Below, piece by piece: positions 12,501-55,518 of a DNA stretch of 64,000 nucleotides (positions within the stretch are counted from its first letter, which is position 1; every line of letters begins with the position of its first letter). The stretch lies in the NCBI GenBank assembly GCA_963281255.1, contig OY725488.1, positions 682,001 through 746,000 on the forward strand. The letters run 5' to 3'. The DNA is from Aphrocallistes beatrix. Its lineage: Eukaryota; Porifera; Hexactinellida; Sceptrulophora; Aphrocallistidae. Below the pieces are notes generated by a model. The model saw only the letters and a list, made by a program, of their open reading frames with translations, made no database searches and had not been told where the DNA came from. The translations under genes and the position numbers were made by a program.

Positions 12501-15500
12501 CAACAATACTGTTAAGACTGTCGGCAAGGGTAGGAGATATTTCAGTTTCATTCTGCAATTGCTCGATAGTATCTCTCAGATTCCCGATGTCTACTTCGGA
12601 TACCAGTGTGAACAACCTGGTTACGGAGGCATTTCTATTTGTAGCATGGCAGGTAAACTTGAATACAGTCAAACCCGTCTCATTGAGAATGCTAGGGTCA
12701 ACGTTATATGAGTTGATTTGGAGTGTTGTATTGTCGAGGTTGGTTGTCCAGGTTATCTTCGGGAGAGGATTTCCATTAGCTTTGCATTCAAGCAGTCTAG
12801 CAAATTTTCTTATATCTTTTTCTACAGTGTATTCATCTTCAGTTGGGAAATCGATCATTGGAGAAGTTTCTACACGAATTTAACAAGCAGTTTATTTTAA
12901 ACGCATGTCTTGACTTGAAGTGACTTTCAAGGTTGCTCGTATGGTTGTGCATGGAGCAACTTCTTTGCAAGCAGAGGCATAGCCAGGGTGCGGCACATGG
13001 GGCCTAGGCCGCAACCTCAAAGGCTGTGCCCACTAAAATTTCACAAATTAGCATTGGGTGCCGCAACCCTCTCACGGAATGGACTGGAGTTGCCGCACCC
13101 TAAAATTGTGCTGGCAACGCCTTTGTTTGCAGCATTTAAATCAATTGATTTACTCTATCGCTCAGTTCTAATTTATACTGCAAGCTGTACCTGGTCGTAA
13201 CTCTAGCTGTGTTGACTTTGAAGGTCCATCTCCTACTGCTGTGTAGGGAGTGACTGTAAAGGTGAATGGAATCGAGTGGAAGAGCTCCCTCAGCAAGATG
13301 CAGGTTTCATTGGTATAGTTGTCCCATCTCCTAAACTCCGAGTTATCAGATGTAGTGACAATCGTGTAGTTAATTATACGTCCATTCTGATGTTCGAATG
13401 GGGGTGGGTCCCAGGAAATTGATACTGAATAGGGACTCGCCTCTCTTGCGATTAGATTCAGGACTCGGGCACTCGGAACTAAAGTAAATAAGCGAGTTTC
13501 TCAATTTAAAGGATTGGTGGTGAGTTGGTGTATAAAATAATGGTTACCTGCTTCAATTGTAGATGCATAAGTAGAAGCAACAGGTCCAAATCCAACAGAT
13601 GTGGCGGCGTTTACAGAGATAGAATAATTCGTATTCTCTTGCAAGTCTGACAGTATTGCAGAGGTGTCACTGATATGCACAATTCTGATGGATGTATCCA
13701 AGTCGATTCCGTAGTATCTGACAGCATAGCCAGTAATGCTCCCATCTGTTAGATTCCGATTTGGTGCTGACCAGGTGACATTCAGTGCAGTGCTACTTAT
13801 GGGTCGGGCGGACAAACTCGAAGGAATCCCTTCAGGATCTACGGAAAAGTTATAATAGAATTAAGTAACAATATGATATTGTTGCACGTATTTATATGGT
13901 CAATAATTAAATAAGCTGTATTCGTCCGAATTTTGTAGTATGCATTTGTCCGACAATTGAATGTCTATTGTCTGATACCTGCATACTCCTTTCGGACAAA
14001 TGCACGAACCTAAATAATTACTTAAACATACTTGATTCGTTAGTCTTTATAGTTAATTGTGTATCAGGGCCTTCTCCAACAATAGTGTTAGCTCTCAGTG
14101 TAACATCATAATTGGTGTTCTCCTCTAACCCAGTCAGTTCTGGTTCGATATAACTGATACCGTCCACAACCTGTATTACTTCAGTAAACAAAAGCGTGTC
14201 TCTCTCCACACCTCTGTAGGTGAGTGTGTAGTTGGTAATGACTCCGTTCTGATCGTAGATGGGAGGAGGATCCCAGGTCACGCTCACGATGGTAGGAGAA
14301 ATGGAAACAGCTCTGAAGTTTGTAGGAATAGCAGATGGAACTAAACAGATCAAATTAGTGAATAATAAACATATTCTACTCCGTCAGCTGTGTTGTATAA
14401 GAGTATGCATACTCACCATCTTCATTAGTTCTCTGCGTGACAATAGCATCAGGACCTTTACCCACAATCGTGAAAGGAGCCACAACAATGGAATAAGTCG
14501 TATACTCCTGTAGCTCTGTAAGTATAATGGATTGATCACCAAAACCAGGATTACTGAGATAGATAACCCTGGTAGTTGTGTCAATCTCTATGCCGGAGTA
14601 GGTGACAGAGTAGTTGAGAAGAACTCCGTTCAGATCATTCAGAATTGGTACACTCCAACTCACAAGGATGGATGTGGCATTCAGCTGTGTTGTGGAGGTT
14701 GTTAGGTTACGAACAGGTGAAGAAGGAACTGAAAGTAAGTAACAAATGATATCCTGAATGTTTCATAAAAAACTGAGGAGTCATAGCTCAAAAATAATAC
14801 TGTAACTTTTACAATTGCATTGTTACACACAACTTATCTTTAAACGTACCATCTTCAGATGTATGTTCTGTCAGATTGATGTACGGACCTGCTCCCACAA
14901 TCGTGTTAGCACTTACACTGATTTCATAGGTTGTGTCTTCTTGCAAGTTAACAAGATCCGGAGCAATATAAATACTCCCATTCAATACAGGAATTTCTAT
15001 AGTTTTCAAATTGAAATCTCTTTCTATGCCACTGTAAGATAGTGTGTAGCTTGTAATTATTCCATTCAAATGGTCGATTGGAGGAGGTTCCCAAGTTGTG
15101 TTGATAATACGAGGGGAGATGACATTGGTAGAAAAAGAAGTGGGGGAATCAGATGGGGCTAAAATATCAAAACAATAAACAATCACCTCTTCAAAATTAT
15201 TTATATTAATGTTCTGCAACTCACCATCTTGATTAGTTCTCTGCATGACAATAGCATCAGGACCTTTACCCACCATCGTGAAAGGAGCCACAACAATGGA
15301 ATAAGTCGTATACTCCTGTAGCTCTGTAAGCGTAATCGATTGATCACCAAAACCAGGATTACTGAGATAGATAACCCTGGTAGTTGTGTCAATCTCTATG
15401 CCGGAGTAGGTGACAGAGTAGTTGAGAAGAACTCCATTCAGATCATTCAGAATTGGTACCCTCCAACTCACAAGAATGGATGTGGCATTCAGCTGTGTTG

Positions 15501-16313
15501 TGGAGGTTGTTAGGTCACGAACAGGTGAAGAAGGAACTATAACGATTAAACGATAATTAAATTCAAATAAAAAAATAATTTAATATATTGCTTATTATGA
15601 TTTTAGAAATATTCCATATCGAGAAATGTCATACCGTCTTCAGGAGTGAGTACGGTTGTCGATGTGATAGGACCAGCTCCTATGATGGTGTGAGCTTGAA
15701 TTGTGATGTTGAAGGTAGTGTCCTCTTCCAGACCTGTCACAGTCAGAGAGGTGTTGGATCGGCCCTCAGTTGGGATATTCACGATTCGCTCTTCTGTGTC
15801 TCGTTCCAATCCCTGGTAGGTGAGTGTGTAACGAGTCAGCAGACCGTTGAGGTCCGGATAGGGAGGAGCGTACCATGTGATGTAGATGGTGCGTGGTGTC
15901 ACTGCTGAGCTGGTGAGGTTAGAAGGAACTCCAGTTGGTGCTATTCAACATAACTCGAATAAGAACGCCGTAGAATGATTATATTCTAACAACTGACAAC
16001 CTACATGCTTGCAGTGTTCTCAGCTCTGTCGTGACCTCAGGGCCATATCCTACGCTGGTGGCAGCTGCCACACGGATCTCATACAGCGTATACTCTTCTA
16101 AACTTGTTATGGTATAGTCATAGAGGATACTAAAATCCGATGCTTGGAGGTGGATCATCCTCTCGGATGTATCCAAAACGAATCCCCTGTAGGAGAGAGA
16201 GTAGTTGACTATAACTCCGTTCTGATCCCTTAGTACGGGCGCTTCCCATCTGACATTTATAGATGTACTGCTTAAGGAAGAGACCGTAAGGTTGGTCGGC
16301 TCAGAAGAAGGGA
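9583..16313 (-). CDS. Adhesion GPCR, exons 9-21 (eight FnIII, Ig, GAIN/GPS, 7TM, tail); same gene as 20956-26079
   Basis: Exons in transcript order, joined by GT-AG introns: eight FnIII exons 16005-16313, 15635-15940, 15225-15536, 14850-15158, 14417-14728, 14032-14340, 13548-13838, 13191-13478 (all phase 1-1); 12265-12869 (Ig-like domain, then the start of GAIN); 11898-12206; 11681-11821; 11047-11578 (GPS with HLTSFAVL, TM1-3); 9583-10928 (TM4-7 and about 290 tail residues). With exons 1-8 the CDS sums to 7623 nt, exactly 2541 codons. Each FnIII shows the WxxPP...NG...Y.L.Y.G.ERD pattern. The first exon here starts in phase 1, so it needs an upstream exon, and the nearest lies beyond exportin-7. 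The alternative is a separate gene starting at an ATG at 16365, but that leader is not a convincing signal peptide. The receptor is paralogous to the one at 199-2672. Confidence 0.85.
12972..13125. mobile_element. 154-bp hAT-like MITE in a GPCR intron
   Basis: Ends CAGAGGCATAGCCAGGG and, on the other strand, CAAAGGCGTTGCCAGC, close to the well-known CAGGGGCGTAGCCAG type of hAT terminus. Flanked by TTTGCAAG (12964-12971) and TTTGCAGC (13126-13133), a decayed 8-bp duplication. The interior has partly inverted repeats of a GGGTGCCGCAAC-like motif and no coding capacity. Confidence 0.65.
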
Positions 16314-43015: not shown

Positions 43016-44891
43016 TCATGAAGGTTTAGGAACCGGCCTGGGCTTTACAAAGCTGAATTCAGTATCAGTTGAGAAGTATCGCTCTGTTTCACCGTGTTTC
43101 TTCTCGGCGGCATTCGGGTTGAAGATTTCAATTCCCTGGATGGGAGTGAAAGCAATGGAAGAAGAGGTCCCGGACACCTGGCGGACTGTGGACCTACCTC
43201 CCGAGTACATCTGCTGCTGCCGCTGGATTTCTTTCTGGAGTTTCTTTGATATAGTCAGCTGGAGATTTGTACAGTAGAAATAAATACAGTACGAAATAAG
43301 TACTTTCGATGGAGCAATGAAAGTTTAAATATTATTTGTAACAGTCACCTGGTTTCGCGAGGTGGCAGCTGGTCCTCTCACTTTCCCAGTGTTCTCCTTC
43401 CGGCCAAGAGTCCCGACTCCAAACCCTAGATCCGTCTGGTACACGTCCTCCTCAATCTGTCCGAACACGATCCGATTACTCTGCTTCCTCACTTCAGTCA
43501 GAGCGTGCTTCTCCTTCAGGCGCCGGATCCGTTTCCCTCCTCTCTTCTTGCGGGGGGCGTCGTCAGGTTTGGGAAGCGGTTTGATATTCTTGACGGGAGC
43601 TGGTTCTTGGAGCTTGTCAATCTTCTTGCGAACCTCTGCCAGGAGCGTCTCTCCCTCTCCACCTGTTGGACTAGGGATTATGTTAAACAAATTACAGCGA
43701 TAAAATGATCTAAAGAGAGACAAATATATGTCACGCAACGTGAGATATCCTCTTCACACCTGTTATTAAACGCGTCGAGCCTCGCTGCGATGGTGCACTT
43801 GGCAGCGATAATTCTCGAAGCTTTCATCCTGACATCTTCCGCCACACTCTGCACCATCTCTGAGAAGTAGAGATATCCGGAGTGAGGGAGAATAGAGGAA
43901 ACAGAGAAACCAGCCAACACTTTCTTCTGAGCGCCTAGCACCTGCACATTACACGCAGGCATCTTTGCGAGGTTGTGTAACCCCCCGGCCACGCCCACAA
44001 GCTTGGCGGCTATAGAGGGACCTGCACACACAAGGGTTAGACCTGATAGGCACCTGTATCAGAAGTACCTATTCTGTACCGAAGACTGACCTATTACTGT
44101 GGATAAGTTAGGCGCAATGAGAGACATGTACGACTCCACAAACTCCAGAATTCGCCGGTACGAGTCAGTGAGATGCTCCGCAGTGCTGCACGCCTCCTTC
44201 ACGCTCTCGAGCTCAGGAGGAGACAGCGGCTTCCCCTGAGTAGTGGAGGCGGCCACGCTGACTATCATGATGGTAGCCGGAGCTAAGATCTCTGAGAGAC
44301 CGCTCTTTGTCACTTCCAGGTGATTCTCCAGCTCCTGCACTGTCCGCATATAGTCGATAGACTTGTGCACCAGCTGTTCTAGCTCCGGAAACCTCTGAGA
44401 GTACAGGTCTCTCACCAGCCTGTGGATCATGTTGATCTAGAGAAGGAAATAACATATCATACCAGAGGTGAGAGGTGAAAGTCTGGATCGTGGATTGATC
44501 GAGCATCTACGATAGGAAGTAAGGAGGAGTGAGGAAAGGGAGTTACCTCATTATCGATCTCGACTAAGATGGAATTACAGTCTACAATCAACTTATACTG
44601 CGGACTATCGGAGGCTAGAGCACCTGAGCTGGTTGTGAGGGGACTGGCGGCCTCTTCTTGCTGCTGGTACTGCTGCTCTATGCTGGACAGGATGGACTGC
44701 AGCCGATCTGAGCTCGCTATCCGCGCTATGTAGCGGACTGCGGCGGTGGGGTCTTTCTGCCCAAACTGGAGCTGAAGGTCCAGCAGCACAGAGTCACTCT
44801 CCGCGTGAAGGTCGGAGTTCCCCTCTGGGAGGTCACCCGGTAGCAGTTCGTCTTCTCCGAGGTCATTCAGGAGCTCTTCTGCCAGAGACAT
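43016..44891 (-). CDS. PRPF31: Pre-mRNA processing factor 31 (U4 snRNP protein)
   Basis: Five exons: 44547-44891, 44091-44436, 43760-44021, 43349-43670, 43016-43258. CDS 1518 nt, 505 residues, close to human PRPF31 (499). It has an acidic N terminus, a long coiled coil and a Nop domain with GPSIAAKLVGVAGG, which in PRPF31 binds the U4 k-turn together with SNU13. The basic segment KKRGGKRIRRLKEK and the C-terminal TISKKLQKEIQRQ match the Prp31 C-terminal domain. It is needed for U4/U6.U5 tri-snRNP assembly in the nucleus. The first 28 codons plus about 145 bp upstream are duplicated at 46101-46335, where they drive the mitofusin chimera. Confidence 0.94.
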
Positions 44892-46335
44892 TCCTAGTCT
44901 ACTGAATAGGGTTTTAAATATAAAATCAACCTCGATTATGTAAGATAGAATTATGAAGAGTCATCCTGGAAAAAGATGTGTTGGGACTTTATAAAATTAG
45001 ATCAATTGCTTAGATAATATGATGAAGCAATTTTTTCGCAGGACTCCTGCTAATAGGAGTTTAGGGATGAATGACTTAAGTGCAAAACAAGAGATTACGT
45101 ACAATTCGAGGCTCTACGTTTAATAAAGAAAGAACTTTATTAATTTAAAAAAATGAAAAGTGTATATGGATATTTGAAAGATGGGAGCTACGCCCATCAG
45201 GTCCGTTCTTCAACCGGTTTAACTTTCTCTAACACTGTTAAGTTTGATGTCTCTGATCGCATCGTTTAATCCTACATCCAATCCTTGGAGAAAATGTTCC
45301 AAAGACATCCTAAACACATTGATGCACCCGGATACATGAGTAGGCTCACTCTTTCTCAGTTCTCGGTCCAATCGGCACACTAACTGATACTTCAGCTTCC
45401 CTAGCTTAGAATCGTCAGTATACCAGTCTAGGGCGTAGAAAATAGAAGTGGCTGCACCAACCCCTAAAACAAGTTTCCAATTCATCAATTTCCGTATGAG
45501 GAAAGCTGATCCGCCTAGAGCACCTAGCGCCATTAGTACCGGCATGACAGGACCTCTCTGCAGTGCAGAGGAGAGTCCGGTGGGCAGACACCGCGAAAAG
45601 GTTGTGTACATTCCAATCTTTCCCAATAAAGGCGTAATCCAAGCAGGAATGCGGAAGAAATTGTAATCAAGGTCTGGCACGAAGTCGTCTAAGAGGTGAG
45701 CACAGTCTGGACGCACATCCAACCTGTAGGTGACAGCTTTCGCGTTACCTACTGTCTCTTGTCCCAGAGAATCCAGTGCATGTCTGCTGTCGCGAGAGGG
45801 AGGAAGCACCTTCTTCGTGACGTCATCCACTACCTTGTGGAAGTAGGCAGTCAGCTCTTCGGCAGATTCTGTGTTGAGTTTGTTCGTGAGTTTCTCATCA
45901 ATGAATGCCACCAGTTCCTGTTGGTACTCCGTGACCTGTCTAAACGTGAAATCCTGTTCAAACCTGTCCGCTATATCACCCAGCGCCCTTCTCCCCCTTT
46001 CGCATATTCTGCGGACGGTATCCCCCGCCTCTTTCAGGAAACGATCCTCTCCCTCCTTCACTTGTATGAGTTCACGCTTCTTCTCTTCCAACACGAGTAA
46101 AAGGTCTGAGTTCCCCTCTGGGAGGTCACCCGGTAGCAGCTCGTCTTCTCCGAGGTCATTCAGGAGCTCTTCTGCCAGAGACATTCCTAGTCTACTGAAT
46201 AGGGTTTTAAATATAAATCAACCTCGATTGTGTAAGATAGAATTATGAAGAGTCATAAAGTCGCCTGGAAAATATGTGTTGGGATTTTATAAAATTAGAT
46301 CGATTGCTTAGATAATATGATGAAGCAATTTTTTC
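44892..46335. repeat. Segmentally duplicated mosaic: PRPF31 5' flank, ANKRD45-like 3' end, mitofusin piece, PRPF31 5' end
   Basis: 44892-45037 matches 46185-46335 (PRPF31 upstream). About 45035-45240 matches 46950-47153 (3' flank and last codons of the ANKRD45-like gene). 45238-46101 matches 48151-49013 (mitofusin). 46101-46184 matches 44814-44891 (PRPF31 codons 1-28). Identity is high throughout, about 97-99% by eye. Junctions show at most one to three bases of microhomology. Confidence 0.85.
45219..46184 (-). CDS. Chimeric gene: PRPF31 first 28 codons fused in frame to an internal mitofusin segment
   Basis: A 321-codon intact frame. Residues 1-28 are identical to the PRPF31 N terminus. Residues 29-315 match mitofusin residues 425-711 of the gene at 48019-50283 with only about half a dozen amino-acid changes. 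The final NSVRES comes from ANKRD45-like gene sequence read in another frame and ends at TAA. The product would lack the mitofusin GTPase domain (P-loop, switch and NRWD motifs) and the last 43 residues, but keeps the middle helices and the two membrane segments. About 145 bp upstream duplicates the PRPF31 promoter, so expression is plausible. It is either a young chimeric gene or a pseudogene that still happens to be open. Function unknown; membrane anchoring or interference with mitofusin is only conjecture. Confidence 0.75.
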   Translation of the reverse strand: MSLAEELLNDLGEDELLPGDLPEGNSDLLLVLEEKKRELIQVKEGEDRFLKEAGDTVRRICERGRRALGDIADRFEQDFTFRQVTEYQQELVAFIDEKLTNKLNTESAEELTAYFHKVVDDVTKKVLPPSRDSRHALDSLGQETVGNAKAVTYRLDVRPDCAHLLDDFVPDLDYNFFRIPAWITPLLGKIGMYTTFSRCLPTGLSSALQRGPVMPVLMALGALGGSAFLIRKLMNWKLVLGVGAATSIFYALDWYTDDSKLGKLKYQLVCRLDRELRKSEPTHVSGCINVFRMSLEHFLQGLDVGLNDAIRDIKLNSVRES

Positions 46336-46944
46336 CTTATAATAAAAAGTCGAGAGAGCATGCTCGTTAAGTCGAGAGAGCATGCTCGTTAAGTCGAGAG
46401 AGCATGCTCGTTAGGTCGAGAGAGCATGCTCGTTATATACTCCATTGGGGTAAGCAGAACTTTCGTCCCTGGAATTTTCGTCCCCGGAATTTTTGTCTCA
46501 TTAGAGCTAAAAAAACGGGCACTAATATGTAAGGAACGGAAATTGAGGCTTTTGGAGTGGAGTATGTTTGAAAAAAAGGGTGAAAATGAGGCATTTTGAT
46601 TGAGAAATCAATAGGTGCGAGAAGGGCATTTCAGGGGACGAAAATTGGTTACCAGCATCATACCTACTTATAATAGTAGGAAGTTATTACATATATGAAA
46701 CTTCTCGAACTAATTTAAACCAATTTTACATCAGGATTTTTATAGGTGATACTACGTACGGGAAGTACAGTATCTAGGACGCATGTAGTAGATTCAAATC
46801 AGTAAATACCTGTACCTTTTTTGAATATAAAGAAGGTATAAATGTAAGGAGCATGCTCTCTCGACCTAATGAGCATGCTCTCTCGACCTAATGAGCATGC
46901 TCTCTGGACTTAACGAGCATGCTCTCTCGACTTTTCAATACCTC
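46336..46944. mobile_element. 609-bp foldback-type element with tandem-repeat arms and target-site duplication
   Basis: The left arm (about 46348-46436) holds four copies of a 22-bp unit containing GTCGAGAGAGCATGCTCGTT. The right arm (about 46851-46940) holds four inverted copies. It sits between AATTTTTTC (46327-46335) and AATTTTTC (46945-46952); the homologous duplicated site at 45029-45037 has one uninterrupted AATTTTTTC, i.e. the empty site. The interior has no ORF. An 8-9 bp duplication fits hAT, Mutator or foldback families; I cannot choose among them. Confidence 0.85.
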
Positions 46945-47109
46945 AATTTTTCGCAGGATTCCCTGCTAACTGAAGTTTAGGGATGAATGACTTTAATTGC
47001 AAAACAAGAGATTACGTACAATTCGAGGCTCTACGTTTAATAAAGAACTTTATTAATATTAAAAAATGAAAAGTGTATATGGATATTTGAAAGATGGAAG
47101 CTACGCCCA

Positions 47110-47778
47110 TCAGGTCCGTTCTTCAACCGGTTTAACTTTCTCTAACACTGTATTCAGCTTAGATCTGAAATCTTCCCTCTGCTCACTCACTTCCGAGTGA
47201 GTGGAAGTGAGTGAGTTCGCATCTAACCAGTTACTCTTCTCATCGCTAACTTTGGTGATCCGTGTCTTGTCATCTTTCGATAGTTTCCCAGTGAAGTTCT
47301 CCGGAGTGAGCACCACACTACGAGCATACGCTATCTCTTCTCTGAAACTTTGCTGGAATGTAAGACATTCAAAAAACTTCATCGCTTCTTTCTGTTCATA
47401 ACGAATCGCCATGTCTTCCGCAGTTTCCCCGAATAAAGTCTCAGCCTTGATTTCTGCCCCCAGCCTAACCAGAGTTCTGAGCGCCGGCACCAGCCCCCAG
47501 CACGCAGCCAGGTGCAGCACTGCGTAACCGGTGCATTCTGTCCTGCCTGCCACATCGACACCGGCACCTGCAAGCTGTTCTATGAAGGCAGTACGACCTG
47601 GAATCAGAGCTGCGGTTTTCAACGGTTCAGAGAGATGAGTGCACTGCTTCATCAGGGTAACATATGGATTCTCACTCGACTCCTCTTGATCTCCAGTCAG
47701 GAGATTCGAGAACTCATCAATCTTGTTCTCCTCGATCAGACGAATTAGTATATCCAAATCGGCAGCTCCTTCTTCCAT
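47110..47778 (-). CDS. Ankyrin-repeat protein, ANKRD45-like
   Basis: 222 residues, single exon, ATG start. Two to three ankyrin repeats lie at about residues 45-145 (GYAVLHLAACWG, GETAEDMAIRYEQKEAMKF). The C-terminal part, KLSKDDKTRITKVSDEKSNWLDAN then a helix, resembles the lid of Hsp70 (KxxxEDKxxI...WLxxN) and is the distinguishing feature of ANKRD45, a small protein linked in vertebrates to cilia and dividing cells. Role here inferred from family only. The last codons and 3' flank were copied into the mosaic at 45.0-45.24 kb. Confidence 0.75.
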   Translation of the reverse strand: MEEGAADLDILIRLIEENKIDEFSNLLTGDQEESSENPYVTLMKQCTHLSEPLKTAALIPGRTAFIEQLAGAGVDVAGRTECTGYAVLHLAACWGLVPALRTLVRLGAEIKAETLFGETAEDMAIRYEQKEAMKFFECLTFQQSFREEIAYARSVVLTPENFTGKLSKDDKTRITKVSDEKSNWLDANSLTSTHSEVSEQREDFRSKLNTVLEKVKPVEERT

Positions 47779-48018
47779 CGACTCTAACTAGACATTAATA
47801 AGCTACCAAATATACTGCAATTCTTCTTAAAATGGTCGGCCAGTATAATACGTACGGTATAGTAATTGAATGTTTATTATAAATCAGGGAATTTTTCAAA
47901 TCTAAGAACGAATCAATCAAAAGTAGTAAAGAGGAGCAAATACACTAATTCATTAACTAATTTATTAACTAATTTATTGGTTGAAACCAGATCATGTCAG
48001 ATGAGGTACGAGATTCCG

Positions 48019-50283
48019 TTATTTTTCAATGTTTTCACTTTTGAATGTTCCAAATTTAGCCCTGAGCAAGATACTTTCATTTTTTAGCTTATTAGCTTCC
48101 TTTCTCAGTAAACTTAGAGCCTCCTTTTCTTCATCAAACTCCGAAACCTTAAGTTTGATGTCTCTGATCGCCTCGTTTAATCCTGCATCCAATCCTTGGA
48201 GAAAATGTTCCAAAGACATCCTAAACACATTGATGCACCCGGATACATGAGTAGGCTCACTCTTTCTCAGTTCTCGGTCCAATCGGCACACTAACTGATA
48301 CTTCAGCTTCCCTAGCTTAGAATCGTCAGTATACCAGTCTAGGGCGTAGAAAATAGAAGTGGCTGCACCAACCCCTAAAACAAGTTTCCAATTCATCAAT
48401 TTCCGTATGAGGAAAGTTGATCCGCCTAGAGCACCTAGCGCCATTAGTACCGGCATGGCAGGACCCCTCTGCAGCGCAGAGGAGAGTCCGGTGGGCAGAC
48501 ACCGCGAAAAGGTTGTGTACATTCCAATCTTCCCCAATAAAGGCGTAATCCAAGCAGGAATGCGGAAGAAATGGTAATCAAGGTCTGGCACGAAGTCGTC
48601 TAAGAGGTGAGCACAGTCTGGACGCACATCCAACCTGTAGGTGACAGCTTTCGCGTTACCCACTGTCTCTTGCCCCAGAGAATCCAGTGCATGTCTGCTG
48701 TCGCGAGAGGGAGGAAGCACCTTCTTCGTGACGTCATCCACTACCTTGTGGAAGTAGGCAGTCAGCTCTTCGGCAGATTCTGTGTTGAGTTTGTTCGTGA
48801 GTTTCTCGTCAATGAATGCCACCAGTTCCTGTTGGTACTCCGTGACCTGTTCAAACGTAAAATCCTGTTCAAACCTGTCCGCTATATCACCCAGCGCCCT
48901 TCTCCCCCTTTCGCATATTCTGCGGACGGTATCCCCCGCCTCTTTCAGGAAACGATCCTCTCCCTCCTTCACTTGTATCAGTTCACGCTTCTTCTCTTCC
49001 AACACGAGTAAAATTCCGCGACATTCCGTCTGCTCCTTGTCCAGAGCTCTCAGATTGTCGTCGGCGTGCTGCTCGATATCTCGCATCAGGTTCTCCGCCT
49101 TGTCCACGATCTCCATTCCCTTCTGCACGTGCTGTGAGAACTTGGTGCGGACCGCAGACGTACTCAGACACTCGAGGAGTTTCCTCTCAAATTCTTCAAA
49201 CTGAAATCTCCTCTGCATCACCCCCGTATCGGGGTGTGAATCTTGCTTCGCATTGGTTCGCATCCCCATTGCTTCCTTGCCAGAGACGAAATAAATGCGT
49301 TCTTTCGCTGTGAAGGAATCAACAGATTTGAGTTCATTCACTAAGAACTCTTCACACTTCTCCGTGTGCTGAGTCCGCACCTTGTCGGCCTGATCGGTGA
49401 TGGCGGGTACGTCCCATCTGTTGTTGAGGATGAACACGTTGGGAGAGCTGAGCAGTTTCGAAACTGTGGCGAAGAATCGCTTCTCAGCTCGCATCAGAGT
49501 AGACTCGGAGTTGGCTACCAGCACAAACACGTCCGCATCCAGACAGTGCTGGTCGATCCACTTGTCCGTGTAGTCGTCGATGTCTATGCCAGGACTGTCC
49601 ACAAGCTCCACGTCATACTTCAGCAGCTCGCAGCGCTCTTTCGGCCAGTGCACCCGCACCATACTGGCGGCGTCCAGCCGGTCGTCTTGTAGGGCGTTGA
49701 CTAGCTGGTCCACATTAGTGAGAGGCAGCTTGTCCCTGGTCCGTGTCTCCTCTTCATCAGCACCAGCAGCCACCAGCTCCATGAAACCCTCTTTCTCCTC
49801 TGTACCCACCACGCTGCAGAAGCAACACGTGGTGTGTCCGAAACCAGTTGGCAACACCTGGTCGTGTAGCATCGCGTTGATGCAAGTGCTCTTGCCGTTG
49901 CTCGTTCGCCCGAAGAACACAATCTTCATCTGTCTGCGAGAGGTGATGTCCCTGATTCCTTCTGATTGAGACACCCAATCAGTCACAACCTTGGTGTTGT
50001 CATCGATCAGCTGAACCAGCAGGTCGCCCTTGATCTTCGTGTGCTGTCGCTGAGTCGTGAGGAAGGTCTGTGCGTTAGTTAGGCACTCCAACAGACTTGT
50101 GAAAATGTTCAGGGCTTTGGCTTTCACTTGGGCGAATCTCTCTAACGGTTTGGCGCCGTGAAGAGAGGGAAGCATGCCTTCGTGTAGCGTCATGGATTTA
50201 TTGAAGGGTGAGCGTGGTGCATCTGATTTGATTGGACTTATCGTTAAGGATTTTTTATCCATTGACTTCATGGAGGCCATCAT
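48019..50283 (-). CDS. Mitofusin (outer-membrane mitochondrial fusion GTPase)
   Basis: 754 residues, single exon, ATG start; human MFN1/2 are 741/757. Dynamin-family GTPase: P-loop GRTSNGKST (125-133), switch Thr in GHTTCC, VDSPGID (G3, Asp229), NRWD (G4, 288-291). A heptad segment (HR1) follows at about 360-450, a pair of hydrophobic membrane segments at about 585-645, and a C-terminal coiled coil (HR2) at about 690-750 (EKEALSLLRKEANKLKNES). All fusion-relevant parts are present. It is the presumed parent of the duplicated fragment at 45238-46101. MFN1 and MFN2 diverged within vertebrates, so no symbol is given. Confidence 0.93.
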   Translation of the reverse strand: MMASMKSMDKKSLTISPIKSDAPRSPFNKSMTLHEGMLPSLHGAKPLERFAQVKAKALNIFTSLLECLTNAQTFLTTQRQHTKIKGDLLVQLIDDNTKVVTDWVSQSEGIRDITSRRQMKIVFFGRTSNGKSTCINAMLHDQVLPTGFGHTTCCFCSVVGTEEKEGFMELVAAGADEEETRTRDKLPLTNVDQLVNALQDDRLDAASMVRVHWPKERCELLKYDVELVDSPGIDIDDYTDKWIDQHCLDADVFVLVANSESTLMRAEKRFFATVSKLLSSPNVFILNNRWDVPAITDQADKVRTQHTEKCEEFLVNELKSVDSFTAKERIYFVSGKEAMGMRTNAKQDSHPDTGVMQRRFQFEEFERKLLECLSTSAVRTKFSQHVQKGMEIVDKAENLMRDIEQHADDNLRALDKEQTECRGILLVLEEKKRELIQVKEGEDRFLKEAGDTVRRICERGRRALGDIADRFEQDFTFEQVTEYQQELVAFIDEKLTNKLNTESAEELTAYFHKVVDDVTKKVLPPSRDSRHALDSLGQETVGNAKAVTYRLDVRPDCAHLLDDFVPDLDYHFFRIPAWITPLLGKIGMYTTFSRCLPTGLSSALQRGPAMPVLMALGALGGSTFLIRKLMNWKLVLGVGAATSIFYALDWYTDDSKLGKLKYQLVCRLDRELRKSEPTHVSGCINVFRMSLEHFLQGLDAGLNEAIRDIKLKVSEFDEEKEALSLLRKEANKLKNESILLRAKFGTFKSENIEK

Positions 50284-51246: not shown

Positions 51247-52238
51247 TAGTATCCAACCTTCGATTGCTTCTATTTCTCAATTCCAAAATAGTTTAGTTCT
51301 AAAGTGGTGACTGCGTTTGATTAGTGAATGTACGTATCTAGTAAAATTAGAACAAGTAGTGTTCCTATAAGTAACAATTTATATAATATTTACAATCTTT
51401 TTCAAATACAATCGCAAAATGTTTGGTGAGTCTAAAATAGCCTAAAATGACCTCTGACTGTTAATAAGTGGCACAATTGTAACTTGGTCTGCCATAAACA
51501 TTCTACATTTTAAGTTAAATTTATCCATCTCTCACCATGGTCTCCCTAAAATCCATTATGGAGAAAGTAGCAGGGTATTTTAGAAGTAGGCCCTGCCACT
51601 GCACACAATTAGCCGACAAACTAAAAATCTTTATTAAACCACAGCCAAACCAGCTCTGTTTACAAATAACTAGCGAATACACAGCATTATTGTGCTGAGG
51701 TCGTTCCGTGATGGGGCGAGCTTGCGAAACAGTCACAATACGTATTTAAATTAAGGTTTGGAATCTATGCAATTTATAAAATGAATAATTAATTAAATAA
51801 AAATAGAACTAAGAACATTCCTAGTGGAATATGACTTTCCTGTTTGTGAGAAAATAGACAAAACATATGAATAAATATTGCTATGGTGTCAAGTTTTAAT
51901 TAGCATAATTTCGCAACATACAAGACAAAAATAACACAGAAAATTTAATCTTCTTCTACCACATGGAGTTAATGGGATTTGAAAAATCTTAACTACACCC
52001 CGCGACACCACCACCACTACCACAGGGGTGCCAACTGCCAACATCGAGGAGCCCAACTGTCATTTCTAAATCGAAACCCTGTTACTAATAGGCTAATACT
52101 ACTGATTTACTTTAATTAGTGCGATTTGGAGGAGCTCTATAAAAGGATGAAGGATAATTACAGCACTGGCAGTGATTAGAGGACGATATTTCGAACAAAT
52201 GTAGCTAGGTAGAAAGGTGTCGAAAGCTCAGTTAAATA

Positions 52239-52788
52239 CTACAAGCGCGCTTCGCGCTTGCTTGCGCTGCGCGGCTGGCGGACACTTCGTGTCCGCCGGA
52301 GGCTCCCTTCGGTCGCCTGGAGTCACATTGGTTAATTATAAGGGAGATAACATCTCTAAATATGTCTGTTCTACTGTGCTAATCGATATCACTCGAAAAA
52401 TCACCAAATTTGTCAATTTTAAAATTTTTGATGCGTAATGATGACGTCATAACAAAGTGATGAGTCATCATTTTTTGATGAAAGTCGCATCATATGTGAG
52501 GTATGTTAGTATACAGATTCTATTAAAATTTCAGCCTTCTATCTCCTATAATGGCTGAGTTATGCACGAATAACTGTGTTGCTTAACTTTTAAAAATGTG
52601 ACAATGACGTCATAATTCCATGATGAGTCGACATTTTGCTCTGAACTCAGAACTTACTGGAGCCATAGCCAAAAGACTCCCACATGCCAAAAATCAGCCT
52701 TCTGCGCCCGGCAGTTTCTTCAATCAATTCGTTACAGATATATATATATATATATATATACAATCATCGAGTTTTAATAGTAAGGATA
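52239..52788. mobile_element. About 550-bp insertion, GC-rich hairpins at one end and (TA)n at the other
   Basis: Absent from copy 2, where the flanks join directly. It begins with strongly folded GC-rich sequence (GGCGGACACTTCGTGTCCGCC split hairpin, GGCTCCCTTCGGTCGCC), continues with AT-rich text containing GATGACGTCAT-like repeats, and ends in a TATATA run at 52738-52760. The asymmetric layout with a simple-repeat tail suggests a non-LTR or SINE-like retroelement. A relic occurs at 22834-22872. Confidence 0.6.
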
Positions 52789-52940
52789 TATTAATAGCTA
52801 CTCTATTATATAATTCAATTTTAATTTTGAAAAGACAGCACAGCACATAAAATAAACAAAACTATCTCTATTAAGGATTATAAACGAAACTAAAGTTAGG
52901 TGCTATGCTCTAGGAATCTATGTATGTGGAGTTGAGAGGT

Positions 52941-53180
52941 TTATGTGTCGGTGGACGATTGAATTTTCTTCAATTCAGAATAAGCCTCTTTCAGCATGGG
53001 GATAAGAATTCCAATTTTATCCGCATTGATAAAAGGTGTTCTTTCAAATTGGTTGTCCCTATCCAAATACTGCTGGTTGATTGTGATGTGGTATTCAGAG
53101 TATGGTAATTTACTTCGCCATAAAGCAACATCTAAATCACCATCCTTCCAAGATTTAATTGGTCTATCAGGAGATGCCAT
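52941..53180 (-). CDS. Small conserved-pair protein, copy 1 (79 aa)
   Basis: 79 codons from an ATG, with TATAAATA 52 bp upstream. The protein begins MASPDRPIKSWKDGDL, has an aromatic/beta-rich middle (DVALWRSKLPYSEYHITIN) and ends in an amphipathic helix (IGILIPMLKEAYSELKKI). No signal peptide, Cys or membrane segment. Copy 2 at 54674-54910 keeps the frame despite a 3-bp indel. The layout of a strand-rich core with a Lys-x-Trp start and a C-terminal helix reminds me of small bacterial proteins with a PC4/Whirly-like nucleic-acid-binding fold; this is weak and unverified. I do not recognise the family. Confidence 0.6.
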   Translation of the reverse strand: MASPDRPIKSWKDGDLDVALWRSKLPYSEYHITINQQYLDRDNQFERTPFINADKIGILIPMLKEAYSELKKIQSSTDT

Positions 53181-53224
53181 TGATGTCAGTAGAGTGAAAA
53201 TAATAAAAAAGTGAAATATACTCG

Positions 53225-53232
53225 TATTTATA
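53225..53232 (-). promoter_or_regulatory. TATA box of small gene copy 1
   Basis: CTATAAATACGAG read on the minus strand, 52 bp from the ATG at 53180. Conserved in position and sequence in copy 2. Confidence 0.55.
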
Positions 53233-54673
53233 GTTGTGAGAGCTTACTCGCCTCAGTGAATATGTTAACATTTGCTACACTCCCCATCCCGAATGTTCAA
53301 ACCTGGTCCCTGGCTTTTTCAATAAAAATCATGTTGGTGTTGAGATAATACGAGTGTATCATTTCATTAAGATATATTCTCTCGCTAAACTCCCTGATAG
53401 ATAGGACTAAACTGCACGATTTCGATGAAATTATTTAATTTTGGACCTGGAAAAACACCCCTGACGTATCCCCTTTTTAGTGGCTCTGAGCCTCTGACAC
53501 CCCTGCCCCTCCATATTATGCATTGCATACACGTTACATAATTGATTCCAATTCTCCAAACCTAGTTAATAATTTATACCGAACAAATAATGTAACATTG
53601 CAAAATAGTTTAGCTCTAAAGTGGTGACTGCTAGTAAAATTAGAACAAGTACAGTAGTGTGTTCCGATAAATATTATATAATATTTACAATATTTTTCAA
53701 ATACAATCGCAAAATGTTTGGTGTGTCTAAAATAGCCTAAAATGACCTCTGACTGTTAATAAGTGGCACAATTGTATCGCAAGTTGTCGGATCGAAAATC
53801 GTATAGTAACTTGGTCTGCACATAAACATCTACATTTTAAGTTAAAATTTCATGTATCTCTCACCATGGTCCCCAAAAATCCATTATGGAGAAAGTAGCA
53901 GGGTATTTTAGAAGTAGGCCACTGCACACAGTTAGCCGGCAAACTAAAATCCATTATTAAACCACAGCCAAACCAGCTCTGTTTACAAATAACTAGCGAG
54001 TACACAGCATTATTGTGCTGAGGTCGTTCCGTGATGGGGCGAGCTTGCGAAACAGTCACAATACGTGTTTAAATTAAGGTTTGGAATCTATGCAATTTAT
54101 AAAATGAATAATTAATTAAATAAAAATAGAACTAAGAACATTCCTAGCGGAATACTTGTGAGAAAATAGACAAAATATATGAATAAATATATATTGCTAT
54201 GGTGTCAAGTTTTACAAGACAAAAAAACACAGAAATATAAATTCTTCTACCACAAAGAGTTAATGGGATTTGAACTACACCCCGCGATATCACCACCACA
54301 GGGGTGCCAACTGCTAACATCGAGGTGCCCAAATGTCATTTCTAAATCGAAACCATATTACTAATAGGGTAATACTACTGATTTACTTTAATAAGTGCGA
54401 TTTGGAGGAGCTCTATAAAAGGATGAAGGATAATTACAGCACTGGCAGTGATTAGAGGATGAGATTTCGAACAAATATAGCTAGGTAGAAAGGTGTCAAA
54501 AGTTCAGGTAAATATGTTAATAGCTACTCTATTATATATAATTCATTTTTATTTTGATAATGATACCACAACAGAGCACAAAAAATAAACAAAACTATCT
54601 CTATTAAGGATTATAAACGAAACTAAAGTTAGGTGCTATGCTCTAGGAATCTATGTATGTGGAGTTGAGAGGT

Positions 54674-54910
54674 TTATGTGTCGGTGGACGATCGAATTTT
54701 CTTCAATTCAGAATAAGCCTCTTTCAGCATGGGGATAAGAATTCCAATTTTATCCGCATTGATAAAATGTGTTTTTTCAAATTGGTTGTACCTATCCAAA
54801 TATTCCTGGTTGATTGTGATGTGGTATTCAGAGTATGGTAATTTACTTCGCCATAAAGCAACATCTAAATCACCATCCTTCCAATATTTAATTGGTCTAT
54901 CAGATGCCAT
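54674..54910 (-). CDS. Small conserved-pair protein, copy 2 (78 aa)
   Basis: 78 codons, ATG start, TATAAATA 52 bp upstream. Compared with copy 1 it lacks one Pro codon and has six replacements (Ser to Tyr, Gln to Glu, Asp to Tyr, Arg to Lys, Pro to His, Gln to Arg). Of the seven nucleotide substitutions I count in the frame, six change the residue and the seventh lies in the same codon as one of these. An open frame kept through an in-frame indel suggests it is coding; the lack of silent changes suggests relaxed or diversifying selection. Function unknown. Confidence 0.6.
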   Translation of the reverse strand: MASDRPIKYWKDGDLDVALWRSKLPYSEYHITINQEYLDRYNQFEKTHFINADKIGILIPMLKEAYSELKKIRSSTDT

Positions 54911-54954
54911 TGATGTCAGTAGAGTGAAAATAATAAAAAAGCGAAATATACTCG

Positions 54955-54962
54955 TATTTATA
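54955..54962 (-). promoter_or_regulatory. TATA box of small gene copy 2
   Basis: Same element and same distance from the ATG (54910) as in copy 1. Confidence 0.55.
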
Positions 54963-55518
54963 GTTGTGAGAGCTTACTCGCTTCAGTGAATATGTTAACA
55001 TTTGATATACTCCCCATCCCGAATGTTACAGCCTGATCCCTGGCTGCAATATATTGTACTCAAATTTGATTTGTGATCAGAAAGAAAAACAATTTGAAAC
55101 AAATTGTTTAGAATCATGTAATACATTTTGTCTCTCAATAAAAATCCTGTTGGTGTAAGATAATATCATTTCATTAAGATATATTCGCGATCCCAAACTC
55201 CCTGATATAGTATACTCTAAATTGCAATATCTCGATGAAAATATTTAATTATTTAATTTTGTCCTGGATCAGATAAAAAGTGATGTAACCCATACGGAAC
55301 AACAGTTTAAGTGGGGACTTGGAAAGCTCTTTTGGACCTGGGAAAACACCCCCGACGTATCCCCTTTTTAGTGGCTCTGAGCCTCTGACACCCCTGCCCC
55401 TCCATATTATGCATTGCATACAAGTTACATAATTGATTCCAATTCTTCAAATCTAGTGAAGAGGCAGAGCTAGAACGTAGCTTAAGAACCTAGTAACTCA
55501 TTTACAAATTATAATTTG

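Follow-up and report, generated by a model that had tools for sequence, protein, structure and literature searches.

How did a reading frame come to begin as the spliceosome gene PRPF31 and to continue as a mitofusin, and is it a functional gene? This question is raised by a locus of the hexactinellid sponge Aphrocallistes beatrix, located in a 64,000-nucleotide stretch of contig OY725488.1 (positions 682,001 to 746,000; assembly GCA_963281255.1). We call this whole stretch the window and number all positions from its first letter. A preliminary description had proposed an in-frame PRPF31–mitofusin chimera with a duplicated PRPF31 promoter. The reading that we favor, with a probability of about 0.75, is that the frame arose by tandem duplication plus deletion; the chimera would be young, its constraint relaxed, and most likely it has no established function.

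Three genes in one reading frame

The frame is composed of blocks of different origin, accompanied by copied noncoding DNA on both sides:

45219 to 46184, minus strand: chimeric reading frame from ATG to stop, 321 codons (list of open reading frames and junction alignments)
46185 to 46335, minus strand: copied PRPF31 upstream DNA, presumed promoter and 5′ untranslated region (UTR) (self-comparison)
46101 to 46184, minus strand: 28 codons derived from PRPF31 exon 1, chimera codons 1–28 (sequence alignment)
45240 to 46100, minus strand: mitofusin-derived part, mitofusin codons 425–711, chimera codons 29–315 (alignment)
45028 to 45239, minus strand: contribution of a third parent, six final codons and stop followed by the 3′UTR of an ankyrin-repeat gene (self-comparison and alignment)
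45136 to 45141, minus strand: AATAAA, candidate poly(A) signal in the copied ankyrin 3′UTR (read directly in the sequence)

The PRPF31-derived codons agree with PRPF31 exon 1 at 82 of 84 bases, both differences being synonymous, and at the junction near 46101 codon 28 leads in frame into mitofusin codon 425. From there on, 865 aligned bases show 15 differences and no gap relative to mitofusin; chance similarity is ruled out by 98.3% identity over this length. The copy extends about 145 bp into the DNA upstream of PRPF31, with two or three small gaps depending on the aligner. Coordinates, codon counts, the intact frame and the duplicated upstream DNA are therefore as the preliminary description had them. 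The fusion that it described is real but incomplete, since it recognized neither the third parent nor the duplication with its later deletion. The end of the chimera (residues NSVRES, the stop and the DNA to about position 45028) is the 3′ end of the ankyrin-repeat gene, with a 93% match, and the stop is supplied by ankyrin coding DNA that is read in another frame. This third part rules out a simple fusion of two genes: start and upstream DNA derive from PRPF31, the body from mitofusin, and the stop and 3′UTR from the ankyrin gene.

All three parents are present at the same locus in the order PRPF31, ankyrin, mitofusin, with the ankyrin gene between the other two:

43016 to 44891, minus strand: PRPF31, intact, five coding exons with GT..AG introns (spliced translation, open frame)
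47110 to 47778, minus strand: ankyrin-repeat gene, 222 amino acids, single open frame (list of open reading frames; Pfam Ank_2)
48019 to 50283, minus strand: mitofusin, intact, 754 amino acids, single open frame (list of open reading frames, Pfam, PDB, genome search)

Human Prp31 matches the PRPF31 model with an E value of 8.9e-4 in exon 1 and a best E value of 1.5e-33 in exon 2. The mitofusin matches human MFN2 and MFN1 (best E 2.2e-90) far better than yeast Fzo1 and carries the Pfam domains Dynamin_N and Fzo_mitofusin. The ankyrin label is based on an Ank_2 match (E 3.4e-4) of 21.5 bits, which is below the curated cut-off of 27.3 bits. We also searched the sponge's own genome exon by exon, scoring the best candidates. 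Mitofusin was found in two places, the full gene and the chimera, with one full-length copy among them; PRPF31 exon 1 likewise in two, the gene and the chimera; and the ankyrin protein in one. Parts of two or more genes are joined here while the parents are still present, as expected of a chimeric gene formed by tandem duplication. A separate observation concerns the full mitofusin: it is a single open frame next to PRPF31 with its four coding introns, and it may be an old retrogene.

Probable duplication, deletion and insertion at the locus

In the self-comparison of the window, three collinear blocks meet at the predicted junctions. They delimit a duplicated unit of about 2.3 kb that ends at PRPF31 codon 28 and mitofusin codon 425, so that the unit is collinear and the chimeric junction lies at its ends, as is characteristic of a chimera formed by tandem duplication. 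Two stretches of the right copy are absent from the left one:

47152 to 48148, no strand assigned: body of the ankyrin gene and 3′ end of mitofusin (self-comparison and reconstruction)
46336 to 46952, no strand assigned: insertion of about 0.6 kb whose ends carry inverted arrays of a 22-bp unit (self-comparison and reconstruction)

The former corresponds to a 1.0-kb deletion in the left copy, so that this copy has lost the body of the ankyrin gene together with the final 43 codons of mitofusin. Right copy minus insertion (2296 bp) and left copy plus deletion (2292 bp) agree in length, and a MAFFT alignment of the reconstructed unit with the left copy yields 1257 matches, 33 mismatches and six gap runs, one of them at the point where we joined the pieces. 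One duplication, one deletion and one insertion thus account for all junctions. Divergence is of one order everywhere, with 2.4% in the PRPF31 codons, 2.8–5.5% in the upstream part (4 or, by MAFFT, 8 mismatches, depending on the aligner), about 4% in the ankyrin part and a synonymous divergence (dS) of 4.1% in the mitofusin part. Read by eye, two junctions share at most two bases (TT) and one base (A), respectively, and their sequences resemble the products of non-homologous or microhomology joining.

The insertion is flanked by AATTTTTTC and AATTTTTC, which resemble a target-site duplication of likely 8–9 bp and therefore suggest that the element was gained by the right copy rather than lost from the left. 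The left duplicate preserves the insertion-free site. When the genome was searched with this region, 66 of the 69 matches among the best 40 of 160 candidates fell within query positions 1102–1182, which covers the left insertion edge and the part beyond it, many of them starting at 1116–1118, at the edge itself; the remaining three are local copies. The edge and the 22-bp unit of this element turn up repeatedly across the genome, on many contigs.

These events can be arranged as follows. A single tandem duplication reaching from PRPF31 codon 28 to mitofusin codon 425 would have created the in-frame fusion at the central junction in one step. The 1.0-kb deletion in the left copy would then have provided the new stop and the ankyrin 3′UTR, and the 0.6-kb insertion would have affected the right copy only, before or after the deletion.

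Predicted product and constraint on the frame

Transcription of the chimera would be PRPF31-like, and its translation would yield a membrane-anchored mitofusin stump without the GTPase domain and with a cut HR2. Pfam detects the dynamin-type GTPase domain (Dynamin_N) in the parent mitofusin only. The hydrophobic region before HR2 is predicted to be retained, with a 19-residue hydropathy maximum of 1.84 at chimera residues 212–230 and a second, weaker stretch (1.18) within residues 233–256; the preliminary description had anticipated both the loss of the GTPase domain and the remaining membrane segments. Of the 161 positions of the Fzo_mitofusin profile, the parent matches 31–158 and the chimera 31–111, the lost 43 codons covering positions 112–158; the score drops from 39.5 bits in the parent to 19.3 bits, below the curated cut-off of 27. 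HR1, which we take by analogy with MFN1 and MFN2 to lie mostly before codon 425, is probably missing from the product. Six residues differ between chimera and mitofusin, with two marked changes (E to R and H to N). These changes are unpolarised, since PDB chains matching the parent reach its residues 43–449 at most by their best stretch, and the chimera itself finds only chance-level matches in PDB (three with E values of 0.16–0.97).

The preliminary description suggested a dominant-negative or adaptor protein. Such a role is possible but unsupported, and it is weakened by the lost C-terminal end: according to the part of a review used here (PMC6317495), GTPase-less MFN1 no longer tethers once HR2 is destabilized by mutation, and with the last mitofusin codons gone, a mode of action by HR2 docking or tethering would be unlikely for the chimera. 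In the excerpts that we draw on, truncated mitofusin without the GTPase domain is named as one cause of mitochondria clustering around the nucleus (PMC9568670), and mitofusin splice forms without this domain act at the endoplasmic reticulum (ER) (PMC10757993). Because these GTPase-less forms have effects, some role for the chimera is possible.

Across 286 codons of the mitofusin part, we counted 8 synonymous and 7 nonsynonymous changes relative to the parent, with the E-to-R codon contributing two of the latter. The resulting ratio of nonsynonymous (dN 0.011) to synonymous divergence (dS 0.041), which the preliminary description had proposed as a check, is 0.26 and fits weak constraint and neutrality alike; of the chimera-branch ratios tried, 0.25, 0.5 and 0.75 are all compatible with the counts. 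As neutral level we used 0.039, obtained by pooling 22 differences at synonymous sites and in the flanks (about 564 sites in all); the PRPF31 part contributes 19 synonymous sites to this total, a number that we estimated ourselves.

Several results weigh against a frame with little or no constraint. If the chimera branch were neutral and the parent had a ratio of 0.05–0.2, 11.0–11.9 of 29 changes would be expected to be nonsynonymous, and only 7 were seen, which is a marginal fit (P = 0.044–0.086). Moreover, the 948 aligned coding bases contain no gaps, compared with 5 or 6 in 342 flanking bases (6 by BLAST, 3 + 3, and 5 by MAFFT besides the join point), and a fully neutral frame is expected to hold some indels. 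Four other direct-repeat pairs of the window, with an inverted pair and the insertion arrays excluded, show 22 gap runs per 78 mismatches, a ratio that is probably too high for coding DNA because the pairs are partly of low complexity. We simulated neutral frames over a range of ratios, counting a frame as surviving if it kept its start and gained no stop or indel. At a divergence K of 0.039, survival was 0.08, 0.01 and 0.002 for indel:substitution ratios of 0.1, 0.2 and 0.3; for K from 0.03 to 0.05 and ratios from 0.1 to 0.5, it ranged from 0.15 (K 0.03, ratio 0.1) to below 0.001. The missing indels hint at some constraint, at gene conversion or at youth, and function is unproven. With 15 differences and no outgroup, both tests lack power.

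The low survival of neutral frames at ratios of 0.1 and 0.2, the open frame without coding indels and the dN/dS value also speak for a functional new gene under selection, that is, a PRPF31-driven, GTPase-less mitofusin in the outer mitochondrial or ER membrane that modulates the full-length mitofusin. Opposed to this are the lost C-terminal end with its sub-threshold Fzo_mitofusin score, the marked changes at two of the six altered residues, and the number of nonsynonymous changes: with chimera and parent both at a ratio of 0.1, only 3.0 would be expected (P = 0.027 for 7 or more), so that constraint at the parent's level fits poorly, and neutrality is also compatible. We consider such a gene unlikely, and slightly more so its most specific form, a selected and broadly expressed three-gene stump, anchored in the membrane, that modulates the only full-length mitofusin found and ties its expression to a spliceosome gene.

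Compared with the favored origin by duplication and deletion, a contig in which two diverged haplotypes were wrongly joined is an explanation to which we give little credence. A divergence of 2–5% could also be allelic in an outbred animal, but the window contains no N, a false join would share only two bases and be in frame by luck, and the left copy has a deletion of its own and lacks the insertion. Retroposition of a fused transcript, which would agree with the intronless coding part of the fusion, is more improbable still: the copied PRPF31 exon 1 and mitofusin parts hold no intron anyway, and PRPF31 upstream DNA and the ankyrin 3′ flank were copied collinearly at the same locus. We rejected it because of these copied flanks.

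Neighboring duplications and known precedents

The window contains further duplications. Just upstream of mitofusin, positions 51280–53569 and 53597–55460 make up another tandem duplication, broken and about 2 kb in size, with 4–5% mismatches. It holds two similar small reading frames on the minus strand (52941–53180 and 54674–54910), for which no Pfam family match was obtained at E values up to 1. A 325-bp direct duplication (14406–14730 and 15215–15538, 96.6%) lies farther away; its second copy overlaps a minus-strand frame at 14809–15471, which we take to look fibronectin-type-III-like.

The closest precedent for the chimera is Sdic of Drosophila melanogaster, an AnnX–Cdic chimera of adjacent genes that arose by tandem duplication and fusion through one or more deletions (PMC3395120). 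As far as the portion of that paper used here describes it, both cases share the tandem duplication of adjacent genes, the fusion of parts by deletion, the position of the new gene between intact parents, the absence of the coding parent's C-terminal end from the new gene and a transposable element inserted nearby. The Sdic coding region, however, is solely Cdic and exists in several copies, whereas here a single copy carries 28 PRPF31 codons in frame, a third gene gives the 3′ end, and the chimera is known from sequence alone. The sponge locus is thus an Sdic-like chimera, and new genes are known to be made in this way.

Tandem duplications in Drosophila yakuba offer a second comparison (PMC5460883). 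In the sections considered here, tandem duplications often yield chimeras with altered expression, 24 of 76 chimeras showing raised expression in at least one tissue. One duplication with a secondary deletion is described, and duplications that form chimeras occur at lower frequencies than those of whole genes, which suggests that most of their effects are harmful. Duplication with a secondary deletion is common to both; the yakuba chimeras, unlike ours, come with population and RNA data. Among products, the chimera resembles ERMIN2 and ERMIT2, MFN2 splice variants in which the GTPase domain and the first coiled coil are partly or wholly missing (PMC10757993). Like the chimera they have lost GTPase-domain sequence, but they arise by splicing, and the part of the source used here does not mention for them a C-terminal loss as in the chimera. 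In a literature search for mitofusin/PRPF31 chimeras, 24 papers matched at least three of four terms, and none of the 10 listed among them names such a chimera in its title, which is a thin basis for its absence from print.

The locus presents a readable birth of a new gene, with two main parents, a third donor, a deletion, an insertion-free copy and all breakpoints within 8 kb. An expressed chimera would be a natural test of what the membrane anchor of a mitofusin does once its GTPase domain and C-terminal end are gone; an unexpressed one would show that a chimeric frame can stay intact for some time while serving no function.
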